IMG/VR virus record: IMGVR_UViG_3300042352_000378
Location: 1 to 22,942 of that record
Strand: one strand, 5' to 3'
Origin: a virus
Length of the DNA: 22,942 bases
Shown here one piece after another: positions 4,517 through 20,782 of this stretch; position 1 is the stretch's first letter; each line of letters opens with the position of its first letter. Under the pieces are notes generated by a model that was given only the letters and a program-made list of their open reading frames with translations, was not told where the DNA came from and searched no databases. The position numbers and the translations under genes were made by a program.

Positions 4517-4717
4517 ATGGCTCGATTCGCGGAAACCGATAAGAACCTATATTACTTTGAAGGTAGTAGGGTAGTGTTTACACCAGAATACCACATAGAA
4601 CGTGGATATTGTTGTGGGAACGGGTGTAGACACTGTCCTTACGAACCTAAACACATAAAGGGAAATATAGAATTAGAAAAAATATATAAAAAAGAAAACG
4701 ATGAGCGTAGTAGTTAA
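4517..4717 (+). CDS. DUF5522-like small cysteine-rich protein
   Basis: This 66-residue protein has the sequence pattern of DUF5522 proteins of Bacteroidetes and other bacteria: aromatic-rich N-terminus (LYYFEGSRVVFTPEYHIERG) followed by YCCGNGCRHCPY, with Cys32, Cys33, Cys37 and Cys40. The clustered cysteines suggest a metal site or redox role, but the family has no established function. It lies between nrdJ (41-nt gap) and thioredoxin (17-nt overlap), so it is translated with a redox/dNTP-synthesis unit. This suggests, without proving, a role linked to ribonucleotide reductase or thiol chemistry. The last 20 residues are charged and probably disordered. Confidence 0.72.
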   Translation: MARFAETDKNLYYFEGSRVVFTPEYHIERGYCCGNGCRHCPYEPKHIKGNIELEKIYKKENDERSS

Positions 4718-4971: not shown

Positions 4972-5003
4972 TTTGGTAATATCCAAAAAGTTTCGTAAAT
5001 TTG
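4972..5003 (+). promoter_or_regulatory. Bacteroidetes-type promoter P2 for asnB, predicted leaderless
   Basis: TTTG (4972-4975) and TAAATTTG (4996-5003) have a 20-nt spacer, with the shared extension TTTGGTAATATC and TTTCG just before the -7 box. The element begins one base after the thioredoxin stop. The asnB ATG is only 4 nt beyond the -7 box, so transcription should start at or next to the start codon. Confidence 0.82.
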
Positions 5004-5007
5004 TTAT

Positions 5008-6465
5008 ATGTGTGGAATAATAGGCGGTAATTGGTTTACTTCTAGTAAGCAGACCCATACCCATTTACAAAAAATAATTCATAGAGGTAGAGATGCTTCT
5101 ATTGTAGACGAGATAGACAGTGTCTTTGTTGGGCACAATCGTCTTTCAATTCAAGATTTATCTTCAACAGCAAACCAACCAATGTGGAATGGTGATAAGA
5201 CTGTATGTATTGTATATAATGGAGAGTTGTGGGATAGTAATTACACAAAAGAATTAAAAGATAAAATTACAATTCCATTTAAAACAAAATCTGATACTGA
5301 AATAATTCTTAATGCTTATTGTGAATTTGGAACTGATTCATTCAAAGATTTGGATGGGATGTTTTCATTTGCAATAGTTGATACCAAAATTAATAAAATA
5401 TTTGTAGTTAGAGATTACGTTGGTGAGTTACCTTTATGGTATGCAATTGATAACGATGGTAAGATGGTATTTTGTTCTGAAAAGAAAGGATTGCCAATAT
5501 CAGAACTTTATGAAAAGCAAGTAAAGGCAATTTATCCAGGAACTTATTTAGAATACAACTATAAAACATTAGAACATTCAACACAAACTTATTATAAACT
5601 TCCAAATGAAATAATAAATGATGATAGAGAAACTATCGTTACGAATATTAGAACAATGTTGGAAGAAGCTGTAAAAGTTAAGATGGTATCAGATGTTCCT
5701 ATTTGTACTATTCTTAGCGGTGGTATTGATTCCGTTATCACTACATATATTCTTTCTAAAATTAAACCTGATATTGAAGCATTCGTTGTATCAATGGGAG
5801 ATGGTGATACTAAAAATGATGATATAAAATACGCTAGAATTGCTGCAAAAGAATTTGGAGTAAAATTGCATGAAATTATTTTAACCGAACAGGATGTTGA
5901 AGATGCGGTTAAAGAAACTCTTTATGTTATTGAGCAAGGTAGATGGCAAAACGTTGGTAGTGCAATTGCACAAATAGCACTATCTAAAAAGATAAATGAG
6001 TTAGGATTCAAAGTTGTATTTAGTGGTGACCTATCCGATGAGATATGGGGTAGTTATGGGCACATTCAAGCGTTCCATTACAAACCCGAAGATTACGATA
6101 AGGCCAGAAGAAAATTAGTAGAAGATGTACATAAGACAAACTTCTTAACAACAAACCAATCTATTATGTGGGGTGGAACCGTTGAGGTAAGAACTCCGTA
6201 TAGTTGGAGACCGTTTGTTGAATATACTTTAAATATTCCACCATTATATCAAAAAGAAGGTGGACATATGAAACCTCTATTAAGGGCTGCATTCAAAGGT
6301 GAGATTTCCGATGAACTATTATATAGACCTAAAGTTTACTTCGCAAAAGGATGTAGGACAGGTGATATGATGGAAGCTAAAAAAGATATTTTGAAATCTC
6401 AATTAAAATCCTTATATTTGTATAAAGACGAACTAAACTTAAATAAATTCTTTCAATATGCTTAA
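5008..6465 (+). CDS. asnB: Asparagine synthetase, glutamine-hydrolysing (AsnB-like)
   Basis: This 485-residue protein has a class II glutamine amidotransferase domain followed by an ATP-pyrophosphatase synthetase domain. Met1 precedes Cys2 (MCGIIGG), the N-terminal nucleophile; HRGRD (25-29) and YNGEL (70-74) complete the glutaminase pocket. The synthetase domain has the PP-loop SGGIDS (237-242) and SGDLSDEIWGSY (339-350). It would make asparagine from aspartate, glutamine and ATP, although AsnB relatives can amidate other carboxylates. It is shorter than E. coli AsnB (554). HRGRD departs from the usual HRGPD, and VRTPYSW replaces the usual acceptor-side motif, so the acceptor need not be aspartate. 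It heads an overlapping cluster with GNAT and two methyltransferases. The required Met1-Cys2 start fixes the start codon, which sits almost on the promoter. Confidence 0.87.
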   Translation: MCGIIGGNWFTSSKQTHTHLQKIIHRGRDASIVDEIDSVFVGHNRLSIQDLSSTANQPMWNGDKTVCIVYNGELWDSNYTKELKDKITIPFKTKSDTEIILNAYCEFGTDSFKDLDGMFSFAIVDTKINKIFVVRDYVGELPLWYAIDNDGKMVFCSEKKGLPISELYEKQVKAIYPGTYLEYNYKTLEHSTQTYYKLPNEIINDDRETIVTNIRTMLEEAVKVKMVSDVPICTILSGGIDSVITTYILSKIKPDIEAFVVSMGDGDTKNDDIKYARIAAKEFGVKLHEIILTEQDVEDAVKETLYVIEQGRWQNVGSAIAQIALSKKINELGFKVVFSGDLSDEIWGSYGHIQAFHYKPEDYDKARRKLVEDVHKTNFLTTNQSIMWGGTVEVRTPYSWRPFVEYTLNIPPLYQKEGGHMKPLLRAAFKGEISDELLYRPKVYFAKGCRTGDMMEAKKDILKSQLKSLYLYKDELNLNKFFQYA

Positions 6466-6979
6466 TTTTGTAAAAGCTGAAAAAGGTACAACTGAAATGA
6501 TTGAAGCTGTAAATCAGGCTTCAACTATTATTGATTTGTATCCTGAAATATTTCCACACTTATATAAGCAAGGCTTTAAGTTGGAAAAGTATATTGAAAA
6601 AGGTGGTATGATACTGCAAGACGGTGTTGTTATCACTTTTGGAAAATATAAATCTCATGGTAGAATGAGTAAAAATGCTACCACATATAAAAAGAAAGGA
6701 GATTATATTCTTCATCAAATTGCAACAAATCACTCTAAAACAAATGCTTCAAAAGAAGTATTAGATGAGTTTGTAGAATATTGTAAATCACAACACGCAG
6801 AGAATCTATTCTTAACCGTTAGGGCATTCAATTATAGAGCCGTATTGTTTTATGAGAGATATGGTTTTGTAAAAGATAGTGATATAACTTGGACTAGTAA
6901 AAAAGACGGAGTTATAAATGGTATAGTATTCAGATTGAGATTGGTTGCAAACAAAAATATAGAAACAGTATGTATTTAG
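6458..6979 (+). CDS. GNAT-family N-acetyltransferase-like protein
   Basis: This 173-residue protein overlaps asnB by 8 nt. Residues 83-140 show the GNAT core: a strand (YILHQIATN), the acyl-CoA loop region and helix (HSKTNASKEVLDEFVEYCKS), then LTVRAFNYRAVLFYERYGF (119-137), the typical final strand and helix. The pyrophosphate-binding loop lacks the usual Q/R-x-x-G-x-G/A glycines (it reads HSKTNAS), so acetyl-CoA binding may be altered. GNAT proteins acylate amines of small molecules, proteins or nucleic-acid bases. The substrate is unknown. Tight coupling to an amidotransferase upstream and SAM methyltransferases downstream suggests a common modification pathway, but independent function is equally possible. 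Confidence 0.72.
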   Translation: MLNFVKAEKGTTEMIEAVNQASTIIDLYPEIFPHLYKQGFKLEKYIEKGGMILQDGVVITFGKYKSHGRMSKNATTYKKKGDYILHQIATNHSKTNASKEVLDEFVEYCKSQHAENLFLTVRAFNYRAVLFYERYGFVKDSDITWTSKKDGVINGIVFRLRLVANKNIETVCI

Positions 6980-8199
6980 AATATTTTGATAAATTTAAAG
7001 GTATGCAGCCATACCTATATATAAATTCAGAAGAATGGACTTATATTAAAAAAACATTTGATGTTAATGATGTTAAAGAATCATTAGCAGAAGTGTGTAT
7101 GGCATACGAATTGCCTTTTGCTGAAATAAGTGAAGATGATGCTAGAAAAGAATATCTTGCATTAAAAGGTATTCGTTGGAATGAATTATTTACCGAAGGT
7201 GAATGGTTTCCAAGAAAGGCATCAGATTTTAGATACTCTTTAGATTTTCAAGGTAAACCACAATACATTCGTAGATTAAATACCGGAAATGATGCATCAA
7301 ATCATTTTCAACAAGCAAATCGTTGGAGTGTAGATGGAACGGTATCACCTGGACCTTCTAGAACTTGGGCAAGCAAAGAATTTATGACAACTCTAATGGG
7401 TGGGTTATATACTCTTAAATTTGATGAAGTTGGTAGAAACCAATTAAGAGTGTGTTTAAGTTTGAGAAAATATATTTGTTCTCAATTTAAACCAAATGCA
7501 GCAAAAGTATTGTATGATTTTTATGCAGCTAAAAATGTATTAGATATATCAGCGGGATGGGGTGATAGATTATGTGGATTCTTTGCATCTGAAAATGGTG
7601 AACATTATGTAGGAATAGACCCTAGAAAAGAAAATCATCCAATATATCGTAAACAGGCCGAATTCTATACTAAACACAATTCATTCTTTGAAACTGAAAA
7701 GAAAGCTGATTTTATAGAATCACCGGCGGAAGATGCAGATTTAACTCAATATAAAGAGCACTTTGATATTGTATTTAGTTCACCACCGTATTTCAACGTA
7801 GAGAGATATTCTTACGATGATACTCAAAGTTGGGTTAGATATAAAAATATTGATGCTTGGAATAAAGAGTTTTTACATAAAACAATTGCAAACGTTTGGC
7901 CTACTTTAAAGAAAGGTGGTATCCTCGCAGTTAATATTGCAGATGTATATGCAAGTTCCAAAGGAGATGGTAAAGGTTATAAAGAGATATGTAATCCAAT
8001 GAATGATTTTATTCAAACATTAGGTGCAGAATACGAAGGATGTTTGGGAATGGAAATGGCGAAAAGACCTGGTAGTGCTGGAGCGGGTTCTATCATAGAA
8101 GGAGATGAGGAAAGATATAGCGAAGAAGCTTTGAAAAAGGCGGAAGAAGCCGGTGATAAAACATTTTGTGAACCTATTTGGATTTGGAAAAAATTATGA
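6970..8199 (+). CDS. SAM-dependent DNA methyltransferase-like protein, paralog A (SPPY type)
   Basis: This 409-residue protein has an N-terminal region of about 185 residues without a recognised fold, then a class I methyltransferase core. Motif I is DISAGWGDRL (192-201), the acidic end of strand 2 is GIDP (215-218), and motif IV is SSPPYF (270-275), followed by ERYSYDDTQS. SPPY is typical of amino-methyltransferases acting on DNA bases, often N4-cytosine, and motif I precedes motif IV with no target domain between. The N-terminal or C-terminal region may therefore choose the target. The neighbour downstream is a close full-length paralog, reached through an ATGA overlap; a third relative is encoded after the clamp gene. 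The start overlaps the GNAT gene by 10 nt. No restriction enzyme is visible, so a solitary modification enzyme is likely; an RNA or small-molecule substrate is not excluded. Confidence 0.78.
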   Translation: MYLEYFDKFKGMQPYLYINSEEWTYIKKTFDVNDVKESLAEVCMAYELPFAEISEDDARKEYLALKGIRWNELFTEGEWFPRKASDFRYSLDFQGKPQYIRRLNTGNDASNHFQQANRWSVDGTVSPGPSRTWASKEFMTTLMGGLYTLKFDEVGRNQLRVCLSLRKYICSQFKPNAAKVLYDFYAAKNVLDISAGWGDRLCGFFASENGEHYVGIDPRKENHPIYRKQAEFYTKHNSFFETEKKADFIESPAEDADLTQYKEHFDIVFSSPPYFNVERYSYDDTQSWVRYKNIDAWNKEFLHKTIANVWPTLKKGGILAVNIADVYASSKGDGKGYKEICNPMNDFIQTLGAEYEGCLGMEMAKRPGSAGAGSIIEGDEERYSEEALKKAEEAGDKTFCEPIWIWKKL

Positions 8200-9410
8200 T
8201 AAAAGAATACTTCAAAAAATTTTATGGGATGGAGCCGTATCTTCGTATTGAAAAAGACGAATGGCAAACTATTCTCAAAACTTATACGAAAGAAGAAATC
8301 ATAGATGAACTTTCAGAAGTATTGCATACATACCCACCACCAATACCAACTATCACAGAAGAAGATACGTTAGATGCTTATAAAAAATTAAAAGGAACTT
8401 GGTGGCCTGATATTTTAGTAGAAGGTAAATGGTTTCCGCGTAATGAAAGAGTATCAAAGTATCCATTAACTTATGATGGTTCTGAATATTATTTTAGAAG
8501 AACTAATGTAGGTAATAATGCATCCAATCCATTTCATATAGAAAATCGTTGGAAGGTTGATTGGGTTAGAACACCATCGGGTTGGAAAACTTGGCAAACG
8601 GTAGAAGGTATTAAAACAATCGTAAGAGCATACTTTACTTTGGATAAAATGTTATTGGATGTAAATTTGGAAACTCTTAAAATGGCAACTACATTAAGAA
8701 AGTATGTTGCATCACAATTTAAACCTGTTATTGCAAAAGCATTCTATGATAAGTTTCAAAGTAAAAATGTTATGGATTTTTCAGCAGGATGGGGTGACCG
8801 TTTAGCTGGATTCTTTGCAGGAGAAACAACAAAGTTTTATTTAGGTATTGACCCAAATAGTAGTAATCATCCTAACTATCAAAAACAAATTGAGTTCTAT
8901 AAAAAACATACAACATTCTTTGAAGAAGATAAAGATGCAAAGATGTTACAAGCGGCGGCTGAAGATGTAGATTATTCAGAGTATGAAAACTTCTTTGATA
9001 CAATCTTTACTTCACCACCGTATTTTAATACGGAAAGATACAGCTTTGATGATACTCAAAGTTGGATTAGATATAAAAAGTTTGATGATTGGAACAAAGG
9101 GTTCTTTCATACAACATTAGACAAAATTATACCAACCTTAAAAAAAGGTGGAATACTGGCAATCAATATTGCGGATGTATTTTCTGCACCTGATAAGGGG
9201 TATGTGGACATAGTTAATTCTATGAACGATTTCCTTCAATCCAGAGGGTTAATTTATAAAGGGTGTATTGGTATGGAAATGACAAAAAGACCCAATAGTG
9301 GGGGTGCTGGGATGGCTGTATCGGAATATTACTCCGATGAATTGAAGGAAAAGGCTGAAGAAACAAAAAACCACGCATTTGGAGAACCAATATGGATTTG
9401 GGAAAAATAA
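8196..9410 (+). CDS. SAM-dependent DNA methyltransferase-like protein, paralog B (SPPY type)
   Basis: I chose the ATG at 8196 rather than the in-frame ATG at 8178. It forms an ATGA overlap with the stop of paralog A, and MIKEYFKKFYGMEPYL aligns with the start of A (MYLEYFDKFKGMQPYL). The 404-residue protein is collinear with A throughout: FRRTNVGNNASNPFHIENRW matches A's RRLNTGNDASNHFQQANRW, motif I is DFSAGWGDRL (194-203), then GIDP, TSPPYF (272-277), ERYSFDDTQS and the end PIWIWEK. The pair is therefore a tandem duplication that has diverged well beyond recent copying, implying separate targets or partners. Catalytic motifs are intact in both. Base-methylating activity is inferred from SPPY. 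The TAA stop abuts promoter P3. Confidence 0.78.
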   Translation: MIKEYFKKFYGMEPYLRIEKDEWQTILKTYTKEEIIDELSEVLHTYPPPIPTITEEDTLDAYKKLKGTWWPDILVEGKWFPRNERVSKYPLTYDGSEYYFRRTNVGNNASNPFHIENRWKVDWVRTPSGWKTWQTVEGIKTIVRAYFTLDKMLLDVNLETLKMATTLRKYVASQFKPVIAKAFYDKFQSKNVMDFSAGWGDRLAGFFAGETTKFYLGIDPNSSNHPNYQKQIEFYKKHTTFFEEDKDAKMLQAAAEDVDYSEYENFFDTIFTSPPYFNTERYSFDDTQSWIRYKKFDDWNKGFFHTTLDKIIPTLKKGGILAINIADVFSAPDKGYVDIVNSMNDFLQSRGLIYKGCIGMEMTKRPNSGGAGMAVSEYYSDELKEKAEETKNHAFGEPIWIWEK

Positions 9411-9411
9411 A

Positions 9412-9443
9412 TTTGGTAGATTCAATAAAATATCGTATATTTG
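9412..9443 (+). promoter_or_regulatory. Bacteroidetes-type promoter P3 for the clamp-methyltransferase-polymerase operon
   Basis: TTTG (9412-9415) and TATATTTG (9436-9443) are 20 nt apart. The -33 extension is TTTGGTAGATTC and ATCG precedes the -7 box. It begins one base after the stop of methyltransferase B, and the clamp ATG lies 32 nt past the -7 box after an A-rich leader. Confidence 0.82.
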
Positions 9444-9475
9444 TATTCACAATTTAAAATTTAAACATAAACAAA

Positions 9476-10195
9476 ATGAACAAAGCAAAATTAACAAGAT
9501 TTATCCAAAAGTATAGTTTGGGTGGATTAGTAGAATCAGTTGCATGGAAAACGGAAGATAACAAATTAGTTACTCGTTTCATATCCGATGACAAAACTGT
9601 ATTGGGTGAAATTCAATTAGATAATTTCACATTTAGTGCACCTGATTTAGGAGTGTACACAACATCAGCATTATCAAAATTACTTTCGGTAGTTGGTGAA
9701 GATATTGAGTTGGAAGCACAAGAAATTGAAGGTAAAGCTGTAAACCTTTTCGTTAAAAGCGAAAACACAAAGGTTCAGTTTCAATTGGCAGATTTGGCAG
9801 TTATTCCAAATGTACCAGATTTGAAAAAACTTCCTGATTTTGATGTTGATATTAATTTTGATGGTGCGTTTATTGATAAATTTATCAAAGCTAAAAACGC
9901 ATTGAGTGATGTTGATACATTTACTATTCTTACTGAAAAGAAAGAATTAAAAGTTGTATTGGGTTATTCAAATATTAACTCAAATAGAGTTGTGTTCGTA
10001 GTTGATAAAGCATATGCAGGTGATGTTAAACCAATTTCTTTCTCAGCAAAGTATTTGAAAGAAATCTTAACTGCAAATAAAGAGGCAACTGCGGTTGTAC
10101 TTAAAGTATCAACACAAGGTATTTCGCACGTTGAATTTAAAATTGATGATTTCACTGCAAAATATTACCTAGTAGAACAACAATTAACTGCATAA
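9476..10195 (+). CDS. DNA polymerase sliding clamp (T4 gp45 / PCNA-like)
   Basis: This 239-residue protein matches the size of T4 gp45 (228) and has the alternating strand-and-helix pattern of a two-domain trimeric clamp. Acidic and hydrophobic strands repeat in each half (for example TRFISDDKTVLGEIQLDNF and LGVYTTSALSKLL). The C-terminus HVEFKIDDFTAKYYLVEQQ resembles the final strand of PCNA-type clamps. It would encircle DNA and tether the polymerase encoded downstream; the matching loader subunits are encoded at 15206-16147 and 16453-16902. In T4 the clamp-responsive late transcription system also uses gp45. The stop and the next start overlap by one base (TAATG), so translation with methyltransferase C is probably coupled. 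Confidence 0.85.
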   Translation: MNKAKLTRFIQKYSLGGLVESVAWKTEDNKLVTRFISDDKTVLGEIQLDNFTFSAPDLGVYTTSALSKLLSVVGEDIELEAQEIEGKAVNLFVKSENTKVQFQLADLAVIPNVPDLKKLPDFDVDINFDGAFIDKFIKAKNALSDVDTFTILTEKKELKVVLGYSNINSNRVVFVVDKAYAGDVKPISFSAKYLKEILTANKEATAVVLKVSTQGISHVEFKIDDFTAKYYLVEQQLTA

Positions 10196-11766
10196 TGAGT
10201 TTTAATTACAAAAAGAAATATTTCTACGAAAAGAATGACTGGTTGTACGAACCGGAAGTAAACTTATTATATGAAGATGTTCTTAAAATGCCATTCGCCG
10301 ATTTTGAAAGGTGGGTGGCATTTTTTAGAGAACTTGCAGTAAGAGTTTGGAATGAAACCGGAGCACCACCGAGAATCGGTGTTGATGAGGGTGAAATGAT
10401 TGAACAATTTTCTAAACTACAAACTTACAAAGTAGAAAAGTTTGAAGAAAAAGATGATGACGGAAACGAAGTCATCTTTAACTTCAATAAGTTTGCAACA
10501 CCAGTTAATCAATTCTTTCCTGCGATGTATAAGACGGGAATCGGTGGTTCGGCTTATGATAAGCCAAAACCATCAATCTACGATGTATTCGCAGATGATG
10601 CCTATTTGCCAGAATTTGTAAAACAAATGAGAAGATTAACTAGGCAAGATGGCATGTATCGTTTTTCTAAAACCTTACATTTAGATAATCCAGAATTTCA
10701 TAATTCACATATCCAAAGTGGTAAAGAGTGGATTGAAAAATGGGCAGCGGGTAATAAGAAAGAAGGATATGGATTTTGTTTATCACAAGCGGATAGCAAA
10801 GTTCCATCACCGCCAATTACTGCACAAGAAGTTAAAGACCTTTATGCAGCTGGTATATTGAAGTATGAAAACATATCTTCATTAAAAACTGCGGATTGGG
10901 GTGAGAATATTGATAATTTAGTTGATGTTCCAAAACAACCAATTCAGATTAAGATATACCCATTAGGACAAAGAATATTTCCTGAAGCAACTGCTGCATT
11001 TCGTATCGGTATGGGTACACAGGCGGTTGTAAACTTCCCACCACTTACTGCAAAATATCTTTATAAAAGATTTACGGAACATATTAAAGAACAGGATGTA
11101 ATTAACATCTATGACCCATCAGCGGGTTGGGGTGGTAGGATATTAGGAGCATTAAGTCTTGATGATAGAAATATTCATTACATAGGAAATGACCCTAATA
11201 CCGAAAACTATATTTCAGAAATCGGTAAGACTCGTTATGAGTATCTTGCGGAGTTCTTTAATAATAAAGTACCGGGTGCGGCTAATCCTTTTTGGGGACA
11301 CGCTAATACATACGAAATCTTTACAACTGGTTCTGAAATTATTAAAGATGAACCGAGATTTCAAAAGTATAAAGGTAAATTAGATTTTGCATTTACTTCT
11401 CCACCATACTTTGATAGAGAAAGATATTCTGATGATGATACACAATCATTTAAGAAATTTGGTAACTATGAAAGTTGGAGAGATGGATTTTTAAGACCAA
11501 CATTAGAAACTATATATGAGTATCTTCGTAATGACCGTTATGTATGTTGGAATATTGCTGATATTAAAGTTGGTCCTGATAAGTTTTATCCATTGGAGCA
11601 AGATAGTATTGATATACTTACTCAATTAGGATGTGAGTATAAAGGCAAATTAAGAATGACAATGAGTCCAATGACAGGAATGGATTTATCTAAAGCGAAA
11701 AATTGTATGCAGATTGAAGGGCAATTTTATAAGTACGAACCAATTTTTATATTTTATAAACCATAA
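10195..11766 (+). CDS. SAM-dependent methyltransferase-like protein, paralog C (SPPY type, long N-terminus)
   Basis: This 523-residue protein ends in the same catalytic block as paralogs A and B: motif I DPSAGWGGRILG (307-318), strand-2 acid in GNDP, motif IV TSPPYF (401-406), then RERYSDDDTQS and an aromatic-rich C-terminus (YEPIFIFYKP against EPIWIWEK in B). The first 300 residues are unlike A and B, with a long charged region around 60-100 and a distinct middle segment. It may carry a different target-recognition or partner-binding domain. It lies between the sliding clamp (1-nt overlap) and DNA polymerase (8-nt gap), so its expression is tied to the replisome. DNA base amino-methylation is the favoured activity, by motif only. 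Confidence 0.75.
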   Translation: MSFNYKKKYFYEKNDWLYEPEVNLLYEDVLKMPFADFERWVAFFRELAVRVWNETGAPPRIGVDEGEMIEQFSKLQTYKVEKFEEKDDDGNEVIFNFNKFATPVNQFFPAMYKTGIGGSAYDKPKPSIYDVFADDAYLPEFVKQMRRLTRQDGMYRFSKTLHLDNPEFHNSHIQSGKEWIEKWAAGNKKEGYGFCLSQADSKVPSPPITAQEVKDLYAAGILKYENISSLKTADWGENIDNLVDVPKQPIQIKIYPLGQRIFPEATAAFRIGMGTQAVVNFPPLTAKYLYKRFTEHIKEQDVINIYDPSAGWGGRILGALSLDDRNIHYIGNDPNTENYISEIGKTRYEYLAEFFNNKVPGAANPFWGHANTYEIFTTGSEIIKDEPRFQKYKGKLDFAFTSPPYFDRERYSDDDTQSFKKFGNYESWRDGFLRPTLETIYEYLRNDRYVCWNIADIKVGPDKFYPLEQDSIDILTQLGCEYKGKLRMTMSPMTGMDLSKAKNCMQIEGQFYKYEPIFIFYKP

Positions 11767-11774
11767 CATAATAG

Positions 11775-14327
11775 ATGTATCAAAACATTTTCTTTGAAAG
11801 AAATAGAAACTTAATTCATTTGTGGGATGACACTTTAGGGTATCGCACATTTCCATATAAAAAATATGCATATGTTAAAGACCCAAATGGGGAATATCAA
11901 TCTATGCATGGTGACCGTTTAAGTAAAGTATTTAAATGGGAAAAGGATAGTGGTGAGGAATTATTTGAATCAGATGTACCGGAAACCACCAGAGTATTAG
12001 TAGACCTATATGGGGATGATACTCCATCTAAAGGTCATATTGTTTTAACTTTTGACATTGAGGTAGAAATGATAACAGGACTTCCAAACATTGAAAAAGC
12101 CGAAAACGAAATTACTTCAATAGCAGCGTATGATGATGCCACAAAAGAGTATCATGTATTCGTTGTAGATAAAAAAGGTAAGGTAAACGGTAAATCGTTT
12201 CAAAAAGACGGTAGAGATGTGCATGTTCATATCTTTGGTAGTGAGCGTGAATTGTTGATGAAATACTTAACTTATGTTGAAAGTGTAAACGCAACGATTT
12301 GGACGGGATGGAATATTGATTTCTTTGACGTTCCATATCTTTATAATCGTATTAAGAATGTATGTGGCGAAAATCAAGCCAATCGTTTATCTTGTATAGG
12401 TAAAACATATTGGTCACCTTATCGTAATCGTTATAGTATTGCGGGTGTGAGTATTATGGACTATATCGGTTTGTATAAACGATACAACTTTGGTTTAGAG
12501 AGTTCATATACTCTTAATCATATCGCTATGAAAGAATTGGGTAGAGGTAAGGTTGAATATGAGGGAAGTTTGGATGACTTATTTGAGGATGATTTAGAAA
12601 AGTTTATTGAATATAACATTACTGACGTTGAGTTGGTGGTATCAATGGATACCAAACTTCAGTTTATTGAATTAAGTAGAGCGATTTGTCATTCTGGATT
12701 TACACCATATGAAGATTATATTTTCTCATCAAAGTATTTGGAAGGAGCTTGTTTAGCTTATCTTAAAAAGAAAGGATTGGTAGCACCTAATAAGCCAAAG
12801 AATCACAAAGATAAACTTGCAGAACAGGCTGAAGCTGGTGAAGAAAAATTTATTGGGGCATATGTTAAAGAACCAATTGTTGGTAAGTATGATTGGATTT
12901 ATGACTTGGACTTAACATCTCTATATCCATCAATCATTATGACCTTAAATATCTCACCTGAAACAAAGGTTGGTAAGATTTCAAATTGGGATCCTGAATC
13001 TTGGGTTAGGGGTGAAGATAGACAATATACGATTGTTGGTAAAACAAAAGAGTTTACATATAATAGAAAAGAATTAGAAGAAGTAATTAGAGATAATCAA
13101 TTAGGTGTTGCTGCAAATGGTGTGTTATATACACAAAAGAAACCTGGTTTGATTGCAGATATTTTAGATACTTGGTTTAAACAAAGGGTTGAGTTCAGAA
13201 AGTTGGAGAAGAAGTATGGTGAGGCGGGTGATACTGAAAAATATGAATTCTATGGTAAGAGGCAGTTGGTACAAAAGATTCTTTTGAACTCAATGTATGG
13301 TGTGTTAGGACTTGTTGCATTTAGATTCTATGATATTGATAATGCAGAAGCAGTAACGATTACCGGTCAAACTGTAATTAAGAAAACTGCCGAAATGGCA
13401 AATCTTAAATACCAAAAAGAGTTGGGTACAAAAGACGATTATAATGTTTACATTGATACCGATTCAATTTATATGATGGCAGAACCTTTGGTTAAATTTA
13501 GGTATCCTGAATATAAAACATTTGACCAAACTAGAATGGCATCTGAAGTTAATATCGTTGCAGAAGAAACTCAAGCATTCTTAAATTCATTTTATAACTT
13601 ACTAGCGGAAAGATTCTTTTGTATTCCAAAAGAGAAACACCGCTTTGAGATTAAGAAAGAGTATATCAGTAAAGCAGGATTTTGGGTAGCAAAGAAACGA
13701 TACGCACAATGGATGATTTTGAAAAATGGAATTCCGTGTGATAAGTTGGATGTTAAAGGATTGGATGTAGTTCGTTCATCATTCCCAAAAGCATTTCAGG
13801 AGTTTATGGCTAAAATGTTGAAAGATATTTTAATGGGTAAAACCAACGAAGAAATAAATGAATCACTTTTGGAATTTAAAAAGAGTATCTATACACTTCC
13901 GATAAATAAAATCGCAAAAGGTGGAGCTATTAAAGAATTGAGTAAATACGATAAAGGTAAGTGGAGAAAAGATAGTGGATTGGCGATTGCTAATTTTGAG
14001 AAAGGAACACCTGCACACGTTAAGGCTGGAATTGCGTATAATAGATTACTTAAATTCTTTGAATGTCCGTTTAAACATGAACCTATTAGAGATGGTGAAA
14101 AAGTTAAATGGGTATATCTTAAAAGTAATCCATTGGGAATAGATACTTTGGCATTCAAAGATTATAATGACCCAAAGGATGTATTGGATTTCATTGATAA
14201 GTACATAGATAGAGATGAAATATATAAAGCAGAATTAGAAAATAAACTAAATGACTTCTTCGGTGCTCTCAAATGGGAAATGGCATCGGTAGAATCACAA
14301 AACGCAAAAAAGTTTTTTGAATTCTAA
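11775..14327 (+). CDS. DNA polymerase, family B (T4 gp43-like)
   Basis: This 850-residue replicative polymerase has a complete 3'-5' exonuclease and polymerase core. Exo I is FDIE (Asp94, Glu96), Exo II TGWNIDFFD (177-185) and Exo III Y280-x3-D284. Polymerase motif A is DLTSLYPSII (Asp379), motif B is KILLNSMYG (501-509) and motif C is IDTDS (Asp561, Asp563); KKRYAQW follows. All catalytic acidic residues are present, so both proofreading and synthesis should be active. T4 gp43 has 898 residues. No intein or split is seen. The gene ends an operon with the clamp and methyltransferase C. Its last bases contain the -33 box of the next promoter and the left arm of a terminator-like inverted repeat. 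Confidence 0.95.
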   Translation: MYQNIFFERNRNLIHLWDDTLGYRTFPYKKYAYVKDPNGEYQSMHGDRLSKVFKWEKDSGEELFESDVPETTRVLVDLYGDDTPSKGHIVLTFDIEVEMITGLPNIEKAENEITSIAAYDDATKEYHVFVVDKKGKVNGKSFQKDGRDVHVHIFGSERELLMKYLTYVESVNATIWTGWNIDFFDVPYLYNRIKNVCGENQANRLSCIGKTYWSPYRNRYSIAGVSIMDYIGLYKRYNFGLESSYTLNHIAMKELGRGKVEYEGSLDDLFEDDLEKFIEYNITDVELVVSMDTKLQFIELSRAICHSGFTPYEDYIFSSKYLEGACLAYLKKKGLVAPNKPKNHKDKLAEQAEAGEEKFIGAYVKEPIVGKYDWIYDLDLTSLYPSIIMTLNISPETKVGKISNWDPESWVRGEDRQYTIVGKTKEFTYNRKELEEVIRDNQLGVAANGVLYTQKKPGLIADILDTWFKQRVEFRKLEKKYGEAGDTEKYEFYGKRQLVQKILLNSMYGVLGLVAFRFYDIDNAEAVTITGQTVIKKTAEMANLKYQKELGTKDDYNVYIDTDSIYMMAEPLVKFRYPEYKTFDQTRMASEVNIVAEETQAFLNSFYNLLAERFFCIPKEKHRFEIKKEYISKAGFWVAKKRYAQWMILKNGIPCDKLDVKGLDVVRSSFPKAFQEFMAKMLKDILMGKTNEEINESLLEFKKSIYTLPINKIAKGGAIKELSKYDKGKWRKDSGLAIANFEKGTPAHVKAGIAYNRLLKFFECPFKHEPIRDGEKVKWVYLKSNPLGIDTLAFKDYNDPKDVLDFIDKYIDRDEIYKAELENKLNDFFGALKWEMASVESQNAKKFFEF

Positions 14328-14336
14328 ACTTTTTTT
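14306..14336 (+). terminator. AT-rich terminator-like inverted repeat at the polymerase gene end
   Basis: AAAAAAGTTT (14306-14315) is a perfect inverted repeat of AAACTTTTTT (14326-14335), with a 10-nt loop and a 7-T run (14330-14336). The pairing is almost all A-T, so termination would be weak. It spans the polymerase stop codon and overlaps promoter P4. Confidence 0.35.
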
Positions 14337-14346
14337 CGTATATTTG
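14316..14346 (+). promoter_or_regulatory. Bacteroidetes-type promoter P4 for the dUTPase / clamp-loader operon
   Basis: TATATTTG (14339-14346), preceded by TTTTTCG as at other promoters here, has TTTG at 14316-14319 with a 19-nt spacer. The GGTRRTATC extension is absent. The -33 box lies inside the polymerase coding end. The next ATG is 19 nt beyond the -7 box. Confidence 0.68.
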
Positions 14347-14365: not shown

Positions 14366-14758
14366 ATGGCAAAGGCTAAAAAAACAAAAAAAGAAGAAGT
14401 AGTTGAACTAGAGCCGATTGGTGAAGTTAAACTAGAACAAAAAAAATATGAAGATTGTGAATGGTGTTTCCAATTTGACGAAGATGAACCACAAGTGTTT
14501 GCTTGGACTGATCCTGAAATTAGTGCAGATGAGAATCCTAAAATCATTTTTGAAATAACTAATGGGGAAAATTCATATATCACATTCACAAACGGTAAAT
14601 CAGGAAAAACATTTAAAATTTACGCTAGAGAAATTTCAGATGCTGGAAAAGAAATGAGAGAAGCTCAAAGACAGGCATTTAAAAACTCTCAAGCTGATTT
14701 AGAAAACTTTGATAAAAACATGGAAGATTATGCAAGTGAAAATAAAGAAACTGAATAG
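14366..14758 (+). CDS. Hypothetical acidic protein with Lys-rich N-terminus
   Basis: I do not recognise this 130-residue protein. It opens with a basic stretch (MAKAKKTKKEE), followed by an acidic central domain with probable beta strands (CEWCFQFDEDEPQVFAW, KIIFEITNGENSYITFT, KTFKIYARE). It ends in a charged helical tail (ISDAGKEMREAQRQAFKNSQADLENFDKNM) finishing DYASENKETE. The only cysteines are a CEWC pair. It is the first gene after promoter P4 and overlaps the dUTPase gene by 29 nt. An acidic C-terminus is also seen in phage single-stranded DNA-binding proteins, but there is no OB-fold evidence here, so no function is assigned. Confidence 0.7.
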   Translation: MAKAKKTKKEEVVELEPIGEVKLEQKKYEDCEWCFQFDEDEPQVFAWTDPEISADENPKIIFEITNGENSYITFTNGKSGKTFKIYAREISDAGKEMREAQRQAFKNSQADLENFDKNMEDYASENKETE

Positions 14759-18088: not shown

Positions 18089-19474
18089 ATGGCAAAAAAG
18101 AAAAAAATCCTATTACTTTCGGATGATTTAAGAATGGCAAGTGGTATAGCCACAATGTCAAAAGAATTCGTATTGGGTACGATACACAAATACGATTGGT
18201 ATCAAGTTGGAGCGGCAATTAACCATCCTGAACAAGGTAAGGTTTTGGATGTTAGCGAAGATATACAAAAAAATTATGGAGTAGCAGATGCTAGTTTAAA
18301 AATACTTCCTTGGAATGGGTATGGAAATGCTGATTTGTTAAGGCAGATTATTAATTCAGAAAACCCAGATGCAATCTTACACTTTACTGACCCTCGTTAT
18401 TGGACATGGTTGTATGATATCGAACACGAAATCAGACAAAATATTCCAATTTTTTTCTACGCAATTTGGGATGATTTACCAGACCCAATGTATAATAGAG
18501 ATTATTATGAAAGTTGTGATTGGATTGGATGTATATCAAGACAAACATATGGTATTATAAAAAGAATTACTTCTAGAACCGATAAAGTAACATGGAGACC
18601 TCTAAAAGATTGGCAAGTAAAGTATGTACCACATGGTATTAATACTGATATCTACAAACCAACCGAAGTACCTGCGGAATATCGTAATGAAATTTTAGGT
18701 GGTAAAGAATATGATTTTGTATTGTATTGGAGTAATAGAAATATCCGCAGAAAACAACCGGCCGATGTAATAATGGCATATAAAAGATTTTGTGAGATTA
18801 TTGGTAAAGATAAAGCGGATAAATGTCTTTTATTAATGCATACACAACCTGTTGATGAAAATGGAACTGACTTGTATGCTGTAATTGAAGAACTTGCACC
18901 TGGTATTAATATCCGTTTTTCTGAAAAAAGAAGAGTTCAACAAGAATTGAATTGGAACTATAATATAGCAGATGTAACAATCAATATTGCTAACAACGAA
19001 GGATTTGGATTAGCAACCGCAGAATCGGTAATGGCTGGAACACCAATCATTGTAAACGTAACCGGTGGATTGCAAGACCAATGTGGATTTAAAGTTGAAG
19101 GTAATGTATTGGTTGCAGATGATTATATTAAGATTGGTTCTTTACATGAATGGAGAAAATGGGAAGGTAAAGCAGAACCTGGTCCTTGGGCGTATCCTGT
19201 ATGGAGTAGAGCACAAGCATTAGCAGGTTCAGTGCCAACACCGTATATTTGGGATGATAGAGTTGATATAGAAGATGTTGCACAAGCAATTGCTAAATCA
19301 TACAATACACCAAAAGAAGAAAGAAAAGCAAACGCATTAATTGGTAGAGAGTTTTTTATTAATGAAGCGGGATTAACACATACCAATATGGCCCAACAAT
19401 TAATAGATGGGATTGAAGATGTGTTTGAGAATTGGAAACCAAGAAAAAGATTTGAAGTGTTCAAAATTAAATAA
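18089..19474 (+). CDS. GT-B glycosyltransferase, family 4-like (first of pair)
   Basis: This 461-residue protein has a two-Rossmann GT-B layout. The N-terminal donor/acceptor domain begins KKILLLSDDLRMASGIATMSKEF, the linker region contains YVPHGINTDIYKP (179-191), and the C-terminal nucleotide-sugar domain contains EGFGLATAE (Glu304 and Glu312, the EX7E motif of GT4 enzymes), followed by AGTPIIVN. It would transfer a sugar from an activated donor to an unknown acceptor. There is no signal peptide or membrane segment, so it should be cytosolic. It is 3 nt upstream of a second, divergent GT-B enzyme and about 1.9 kb from a Ser/Thr-rich collagen-like structural gene. Acceptors could be phage fibre, DNA or host glycans; sequence alone does not decide. 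Confidence 0.85.
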   Translation: MAKKKKILLLSDDLRMASGIATMSKEFVLGTIHKYDWYQVGAAINHPEQGKVLDVSEDIQKNYGVADASLKILPWNGYGNADLLRQIINSENPDAILHFTDPRYWTWLYDIEHEIRQNIPIFFYAIWDDLPDPMYNRDYYESCDWIGCISRQTYGIIKRITSRTDKVTWRPLKDWQVKYVPHGINTDIYKPTEVPAEYRNEILGGKEYDFVLYWSNRNIRRKQPADVIMAYKRFCEIIGKDKADKCLLLMHTQPVDENGTDLYAVIEELAPGINIRFSEKRRVQQELNWNYNIADVTINIANNEGFGLATAESVMAGTPIIVNVTGGLQDQCGFKVEGNVLVADDYIKIGSLHEWRKWEGKAEPGPWAYPVWSRAQALAGSVPTPYIWDDRVDIEDVAQAIAKSYNTPKEERKANALIGREFFINEAGLTHTNMAQQLIDGIEDVFENWKPRKRFEVFKIK

Positions 19475-19477
19475 GTT

Positions 19478-20782
19478 ATGAGTAAACCAACATTAGTATT
19501 TCAGGGACCTATTTTTACGAGAAGTGGATATGGGGACCATTGTAGAGATTTGATGAAATCACTACGCAAAATGGATAAATATGATATTAAGATTATCCCA
19601 CTTCGTTGGGGTAACACTCCACAAAATCAAGTAACTGACCAAGATGAATTTGGTAGATGGATGCTTGAAAGAGTTGTAGGAGTAGTAGAACAAAAGCCGG
19701 ATGTATTTATGCAAGTTTCGGTAGCAAATGAATTTGAACCAAAAGGACACTATAATATTGGTATAACTGCCGGTGTTGAAACTACAATTGCTCCAAAAGA
19801 TTTCATTGATGGTTCTAACAAAATGGATTTGATATTAGTACCATCTCATTTCACAAGACAAAATTTAGGTGGAACTGTTTATCAACAAAAAAATCAACAA
19901 ACTGATGAAATAGTTGGTGAAATTAGGGTTGTAAAGCCAATTGAAGTGCTTTTTGAAGGAGTTGATACCGATATATTTGAATCATCCGTACCATCTAAAA
20001 CAAATACTGATATTTTAGAAAATATAAAAGAAGATTTTTGTTTTTTAGTTGTTGGACATTGGCTGAAAGGAGATTTGGGACAAGATAGAAAAGATATTGG
20101 TATGGCAATTAAAACATTTGCAACCGTATTCCAATATACCAAAGAAAACAAACCAGCTCTTATCATAAAGACATCGCATGCCGGATTTAGTGTAATGGAT
20201 AGAGAAGCTACTAGAAAGAAAATTGAAGAAGTTATAAAGAGTTTTGGTGATAAGTGTCCACCTATTTATTTACTTCATGGTGATATGGAAGAAAGTGATA
20301 TGAGTAATTTATACCACCATCCAAAAGTTAAAGCAATGGTATCATTTGCTAAAGGTGAAGGATATGGTAGACCAATGGCTGAATTTAGTTTGACTGGTAA
20401 ACCAATTATAGCAAGTGGTTGGAGTGGACATACTGACTTTTTACCAAAAGAACATGCAGTTTTATTAGAGGGTTCGTTGACAAATGTACATGAATCGGCG
20501 GCAGACCAATTTTGTATGAAAGAAGCTCAATGGTTTACTGTAAATTATTCAAATGCAGCAAATAAATTATATGATGTGTATAAAAACTACAATACATACA
20601 AAACTCAATCGGTTGGTTTAAAAGATAATACTCTTAAACATTTTACTTTGGATAAAATGACGGAAAGATTTGAACAAATACTTGATACTTATGTAAAGAG
20701 AGCACCGCAAGTAGTTCCATTCAATGTTCCAAAAGTAAACAGTCAAAAGATAGAATTACCAAAACTTAAAAAAATAGGTTAA
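19478..20782 (+). CDS. GT-B glycosyltransferase, family 4-like (second of pair)
   Basis: This 434-residue protein shares the GT-B architecture with its upstream neighbour but is clearly diverged. It opens with LVFQGPIFTRSGYGDHCRDL, which holds a Gly-rich loop. It then has a VPSHFTRQN segment, LFEGVDTDIF at the interdomain region and the C-terminal EX7E motif EGYGRPMAE (Glu294, Glu302), followed by TGKPIIAS. It is a probable retaining sugar transferase. The 3-nt gap to the first glycosyltransferase and the TAATG overlap with the following gene indicate one operon. No membrane segment or secretion signal is present. Two enzymes in tandem suggest sequential addition of two sugars, which is an inference. 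Confidence 0.84.
   Translation: MSKPTLVFQGPIFTRSGYGDHCRDLMKSLRKMDKYDIKIIPLRWGNTPQNQVTDQDEFGRWMLERVVGVVEQKPDVFMQVSVANEFEPKGHYNIGITAGVETTIAPKDFIDGSNKMDLILVPSHFTRQNLGGTVYQQKNQQTDEIVGEIRVVKPIEVLFEGVDTDIFESSVPSKTNTDILENIKEDFCFLVVGHWLKGDLGQDRKDIGMAIKTFATVFQYTKENKPALIIKTSHAGFSVMDREATRKKIEEVIKSFGDKCPPIYLLHGDMEESDMSNLYHHPKVKAMVSFAKGEGYGRPMAEFSLTGKPIIASGWSGHTDFLPKEHAVLLEGSLTNVHESAADQFCMKEAQWFTVNYSNAANKLYDVYKNYNTYKTQSVGLKDNTLKHFTLDKMTERFEQILDTYVKRAPQVVPFNVPKVNSQKIELPKLKKIG

Follow-up and report, generated by a model that had tools for sequence, protein, structure and literature searches.

Three methyltransferase genes, A, B, and C, lie among the replication genes of a phage. The reading that we favor, with a little better than even confidence, is that they encode orphan SAM-dependent DNA amino-methyltransferases of different specificities, which mark phage DNA against restriction. 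In many aquatic phages, members of their family, which is large and has no assigned function, occupy recurrent spots among the replication genes; its target, once known, would show how these phages handle restriction in their hosts, which are probably Bacteroidota. The least ordinary and new element is a wider unit that the original prediction missed, in which A is joined to a GNAT acetyltransferase and an asparagine synthetase homologue (AsnS).

Gene layout and predicted transcription units

The window, i.e., the whole stretch of DNA that was analyzed, comprises positions 1-22,942 (22,942 nt) of the IMG/VR virus record IMGVR_UViG_3300042352_000378. Judged by Pfam matches and annotation of its genes, it belongs to a phage replication region and has genes for a nuclease, a DnaB-type helicase, ribonucleotide reductase, a PCNA-like clamp, a family B polymerase, dUTPase, large and small clamp-loader subunits, and an exonuclease. 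All three methyltransferase ORFs are complete in the window and lie on the positive strand: A (409 aa) at 6970..8199, with a match to PHROG 12517 at E=1.4e-17; B (404 aa), a duplicate of A, at 8196..9410; and C (523 aa), a member of its own subfamily, at 10195..11766. The start of B was placed at the ATG at 8196, in the ATGA overlap with the stop codon of A, and a TTG start at 8178 was dropped in its favor.

The gene junctions are tight. The gene for the glutamine-dependent AsnS (5008..6465, positive strand), which has GATase and synthetase domains, overlaps that for the GNAT (6458..6979, positive strand), which in turn overlaps A. As originally described, C is placed between the sliding-clamp-like protein (9476..10195, positive strand; weak PCNA_C match), whose stop codon it overlaps by 1 nt, and the family B DNA polymerase (11775..14327, positive strand), which starts after an 8-nt gap. 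The interval first proposed for the system, 6970-11766, does contain A, B, and C, but the conserved unit begins upstream of it, at AsnS (5008). The same arrangement was found in a related 274-kb contig, where most proteins were 96-100% identical and one small zinc-ribbon gene was 84% identical; a fourth, remote family match lies at 233.7 kb of that contig. No cognate restriction endonuclease adjoining A, B, or C was recognized within the window.

The pattern TTTG-N18-22-TANNTTTG, which is of the Bacteroidota promoter type, occurs 7 times in the window as opposed to 1.6 expected, and none of 100 shuffled sequences reached 7. Five of these promoter-like sites are placed immediately ahead of genes. 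Three of the five precede the helicase (791-822), AsnS (4972-5003), and the gene at 14366 (14316-14346). A further site on the positive strand, 38 nt before the GNAT start (6390..6420), would drive gnat-A-B, and one in the gap between B and the clamp (9412..9443, positive strand) would drive clamp-C-polymerase. Upstream of the clamp, 17 of 37 unique relatives had a looser form of the motif, versus 2.2% of random windows, and a sigma-70 promoter scan of the window gave nothing above chance. Because these sites are of the Bacteroidota type, a Bacteroidota host is likely and two transcription units are predicted, with C probably cotranscribed with the clamp and the polymerase.

Family, fold, and candidate specificity segment

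The shared motifs AGWG[DG]R and SPPYF are present and intact in A, B, and C. In A, motif I reads DISAGWGDR (residues 192-200) and motif IV SSPPYF (residues 270-275), and the N-terminal domain spans approximately residues 1-165; the corresponding motifs of C read DPSAGWGGR and TSPPYF. A search of the window with A alone returned B at E=1.3e-136 and C at E=1.6e-24, and the similarity of the three sequences is far beyond chance. A and B proved collinear over their full length, as claimed, with 51% identity. Identity between A and C is 24-27% and is mostly confined to the catalytic part; the different N terminus ascribed to C comprises 276 residues unrelated to A and B, close to the 300 first given.

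The ERYSxDDTQS block, which forms the loop following motif IV, had been called invariant. Apart from its variable position, this holds for A, B, and C, but it fails in the wider family, where Twort-type relatives lack the DDTQS part. In the family alignment, the residues that never vary are, in order, D...G...R, E, F-x-SPPYF-x-x-E-x-Y, Q, W, and a terminal E. The aromatic C-terminal end is likewise shared; in the model of A, it is not a tail but the last beta-strand of the methyltransferase fold (residues 398-408), and for this reason a clamp-binding role was rejected. At the other end of the protein, members of the C subfamily (window 10195-10240; L254, L342, L339, and L079) start with a conserved K-[YF]-[FY]-Y-E-K that resembles the polymerase C terminus, KKFFEF; speculatively, it could be a clamp-binding peptide.

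In the profile search that had been suggested for defining the family, 30 of 30 diverse members matched PHROG 12517 (best E=1.2e-21), a family without an assigned function that includes A, B, and C. Twenty-two of the 30 also matched PHROG 498 (DNA methyltransferase), which, together with PHROG 67, makes up the DNA methyltransferase families matched. B scored above the curated cut-off of Pfam N6_N4_Mtase (27.6 bits; cut-off, 26.7), A and C scored below it, and type II methyltransferase profiles of PADLOC matched enzymes of the family. Pfam gave no match to a ParB domain in the A, B, or C polypeptide; a ParB-like annotation is carried by some of the weaker relatives. Among cultured phages, Bacteroides phage DAC16 encodes a member of the family.

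The predicted models of A (AlphaFold pLDDT 88) and C (AlphaFold pLDDT 90) display a class I Rossmann methyltransferase fold. SAM motif I is a variant, xAGWGxR instead of FxGxG, and motif IV conforms to [DNS]PP[YFW], being SPPYF in A, B, C, and every aligned family member. SPPY has been described as a hallmark of N4-cytosine methyltransferases (PMC6712171). Found in all three enzymes, it is compatible with adenine N6 as well, and cytosine N4 is probably the likelier target base of A, B, and C. The best PDB profile match was the DNA cytosine-N4 methyltransferase N4CMT (PDB 8s9n), in circularly permuted order: the alignment covers SPPY and the final E-I-F-x-F-x-K strand, whereas motif IV stands ahead of motif I in N4CMT, unlike in A, B, and C. 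The closest viral structure models carry the name of cytosine-N4 DNA methyltransferases, assigned by homology, and a phmmer search of C alone against solved structures gave no match.

The fold does not name the substrate, because the PDB fold search returned generic class I methyltransferases, headed by enzymes that act on RNA or small molecules. The presence of tRNA methyltransferases among these top matches would suit methylation of RNA or protein, e.g., in host hijacking. Such a target is nevertheless very unlikely in view of the SPPY motif, the matches to DNA methyltransferase profiles, and the DNA-modification-type neighbors found in some relatives.

No known target-recognition domain was detected by Pfam in A, B, or C. 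In a subfamily tree rooted by midpoint, the B subfamily (branch 100/100) was nested within the diversity of A, whereas C formed a separate deep clade, as did a fourth subfamily, D (about 350 aa). Because of this topology, we regard A and B as a true duplication and C as an older, separate subfamily that is not a recent copy of either. The N-terminal part was 59% identical within A and 39% identical between A and B; for the core, the respective values were 68% and 58%. Twelve alignment columns had one fixed residue in A and another in B; 8 of these columns fell at residues 114-144 of A (7309..7401, positive strand), and the density of distinguishing columns was 0.113 per site at residues 80-150 versus 0.016 in the core. 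A specificity segment would look like this, which makes residues 114-144 of A a candidate recognition segment. The difference between A and B in this segment offers a ready test of specificity change after duplication.

Replication neighbors, restriction, and possible lateral exchange

The clustering with replisome genes, noticed at the outset in the window, is real and conserved across relatives. At loci retrieved with several queries, C adjoins the clamp or the polymerase; B adjoins the clamp or A; A adjoins the GNAT, B, the clamp, or the polymerase; and D adjoins the helicase or the clamp loader. Half of the D loci had a small clamp-loader subunit close to D. The neighbor counts cover near-identical contigs as well as overlapping loci, and they are not independent. 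These replisome neighbors recur in several different gene orders in divergent aquatic phages. The replisome slot of this methyltransferase family is real and recurrent, a trend, and it is not obligatory. In L070-L080, C (76-78% identical) belongs to a cluster that lacks these replication genes, and a polymerase of the window's type was not found in five C-bearing records of this set, some of them partial; IMG/VR contigs are often fragments, so such absences are weak. Because C occurs in phages with no recognizable polymerase of this type, coupling to replication is not required. The dedicated, replication-coupled base modification system of multiple specificities that had been proposed is retained in part: DNA amino-methyltransferases of different specificities are the best reading, but C also resides outside the replisome.

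Restriction shielding by orphan methyltransferases is an already known strategy. Lactococcal 936-type phages carry, like this phage, several methyltransferases without a nuclease in replication or packaging regions; these enzymes have been methylome-mapped, and some were shown to protect against restriction enzymes (PMC4190342). In jumbo phages, the presence of several methylases was suggested to counter several restriction systems (PMC7824862). Unlike the 936 enzymes, A, B, and C belong to PHROG 12517, have the motif order I-IV, and are devoid of a recognized target-recognition domain, and their family occupies recurrent slots beside the clamp and the polymerase. By analogy with these phages, an anti-restriction role is the best reading for A, B, and C.

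Under this reading, SAM would be bound at the AGWG[DG]R loop, and the target base, likelier cytosine (N4) than adenine (N6), would be held and methylated at SPPYF, with the E-x-Y-S...Q-S loop past SPPYF shaping the active site. The N-terminal domains would read DNA. A and B would do so with a common architecture and one differing segment (114-144 in A), and C with an N-terminal domain of its own, so that up to three sequences might be marked. The two predicted transcription units, gnat-A-B and clamp-C-polymerase, would be active with replication, and new phage DNA would be methylated ahead of cutting by host restriction.

In L182, C was 78% identical as opposed to 58% for the polymerase, and at loci picked by D or the GNAT, C was either at least 77% identical or present only as a 28-45% relative. 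This pattern suggests that C spread by lateral exchange. The view of C as a slowly evolving part of the replisome core was abandoned: the first comparison was biased, its loci having been chosen by C, and the loci picked by D or the GNAT point to exchange. The same data bear on whether the three enzymes place regulatory marks on the phage's own DNA, governing late transcription timing, packaging, or recombination control, and are not directed against restriction. Regulatory marks would suit the conserved position among replication genes and the high conservation of C within its subclade, a comparison biased by selection on C. They are quite unlikely, since the lateral pattern is patchy, as in L182, and C is found in phages without this replisome, which fits the exchange of defense-type genes.

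Some family relatives adjoin ParB or HNH/GmrSD proteins, and the HNH/GmrSD proteins are in some cases directly beside A or B. In L079 (15988-18946), a phage record without this replisome, a GmrSD_N-HNH protein matching a PADLOC type II restriction profile (E=2.4e-12) adjoins a B-type methyltransferase. Cellular restriction systems were rejected as the source of the family: a genome scan yielded contigs of MAGs, single cells, and isolates, and Pfam recognized no restriction enzyme among ten neighbors.

The AsnS-GNAT-A cassette

Plain methylation does not account for the AsnS and GNAT partners of A. AsnS was located directly upstream of the GNAT in 30 of 30 contigs fetched with the GNAT, and A was downstream of the GNAT in those of the 30 that reached far enough. 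In two long contigs (G008 and G015), asn-gnat-A was intact though roughly 13-20 kb away from C, and a diverged AsnS adjoins C in L022. In L041, L048, and record G012, A has neither the GNAT nor AsnS nearby.

The GNAT, which has the signature FPH...HQI...VR..N..A..FY, also occurs with other methyltransferases. Of seven lineages with enough flank in a search with the GNAT alone, five had a methyltransferase that matches the profile of the A/B/C family within 3 kb, and two further GNAT-methyltransferase lineages, found through the methyltransferase, were D-like. A wider GNAT search placed the family beside C-type enzymes in L330-L332, L338-L341, L333, and L342 and near another N6_N4 methylase in L334-L337; loci selected by the methyltransferase added L094, a D-like case with a ParB gene, and L091. 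Two GNAT lineages had no visible methyltransferase. The GNAT family pairs with different methyltransferase subfamilies across several independent lineages, and the literature searched yielded no description of such a pair. The recurrent pairing raises the possibility of a new base chemistry, for which mass spectrometry of nucleosides would be a direct test.

That chemistry could be a DNA hypermodification, in which a methyltransferase-fold enzyme (A or another GNAT-linked member) marks the base, an acyl group is added or amidated by the GNAT (in this lineage together with AsnS), and the methyltransferase subfamilies choose the sequences. If this is true, the base would carry an acylated or amidated group, bulky in comparison with a simple methyl mark, and the phage system would be an undescribed one. 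The overlapping AsnS-GNAT-A genes that stay together away from the replisome speak for it, as do the GNAT-found and D-like lineages and the diverged AsnS beside C. There are also precedents. In the CmoA/CmoX/CmoY system, as here, a phage asparagine synthetase homologue is encoded beside a DNA-methyltransferase-like gene, and it ligates glycine to carboxymethylcytosine in phage DNA; a second, GATase-bearing cluster in that study is uncharacterized (PMC12783734). Mom of phage Mu is, like the protein encoded here, a phage-borne GNAT-like enzyme with a proposed tie to DNA base modification, and it modifies adenine (PMC7824862).

Neither precedent explains the methyltransferase-GNAT cassette. A, B, and C are SPPY amino-methyltransferases as opposed to the SPPC C5-type CmoX with its cysteine nucleophile, and a GNAT is present here, unlike in the Cmo system. 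A carboxymethyl route via Cx-SAM was rejected, as a search with the CmoA profile gave no hit in 18 related records of up to 274 kb, several of them incomplete. Mom identity was rejected as well: Mu Mom scored 0.4 bits with the profile of this GNAT, which has its own signature and, unlike Mom, is encoded beside a methyltransferase. Together with the loci where A lacks the GNAT and AsnS and the lineages where the GNAT lacks a methyltransferase, these results make hypermodification unlikely.

For the cassette alone, it is quite possible, if somewhat short of even, that AsnS and the GNAT are unrelated metabolic or host takeover genes that share the operon of A, which is compatible with protective methylation by A, B, and C. 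The AsnS score exceeds the TIGR01536 cut-off, and host proteins are a frequently predicted target of phage GNATs (PMC7824862), but the pairing of the GNAT family with different methyltransferase subfamilies in independent lineages argues against coincidental neighbors.

Several other genes were seen around these loci. In marine-type relatives, the gap between gnat and A contains an HNH/GmrSD-type gene (L298:6166-7764, L174:7166-8701, and L320) or a gene that appears ParB-like by eye from a DG-x-x-R pattern (L300, L305, L306, L309, and L319); Pfam confirmed only the HNH/GmrSD ones tested. An aspartyl/asparaginyl beta-hydroxylase-like dioxygenase (PF05118; L333:5643-6263, L339:4408-5007, L342:5488-6108, and L328:3778-4944) adjoins the GNAT or lies close to it in three lineages, and two of these encode a C-type methyltransferase as well; the dioxygenase was rejected as a third component, having no good match in the window's relatives. 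The window itself encodes a glycosyltransferase matching GT4-conflict (PF20706) at 18089-19474, followed by a gene without a Pfam match at 19478-20782, and a small cysteine-rich DUF5522 protein at 4517-4717, a related domain of which is found near the methyltransferase-GNAT pair in L333 and L342. In L334 (5609-9727), the N6_N4 methylase gene that adjoins the GNAT is split by intein and homing endonuclease domains.
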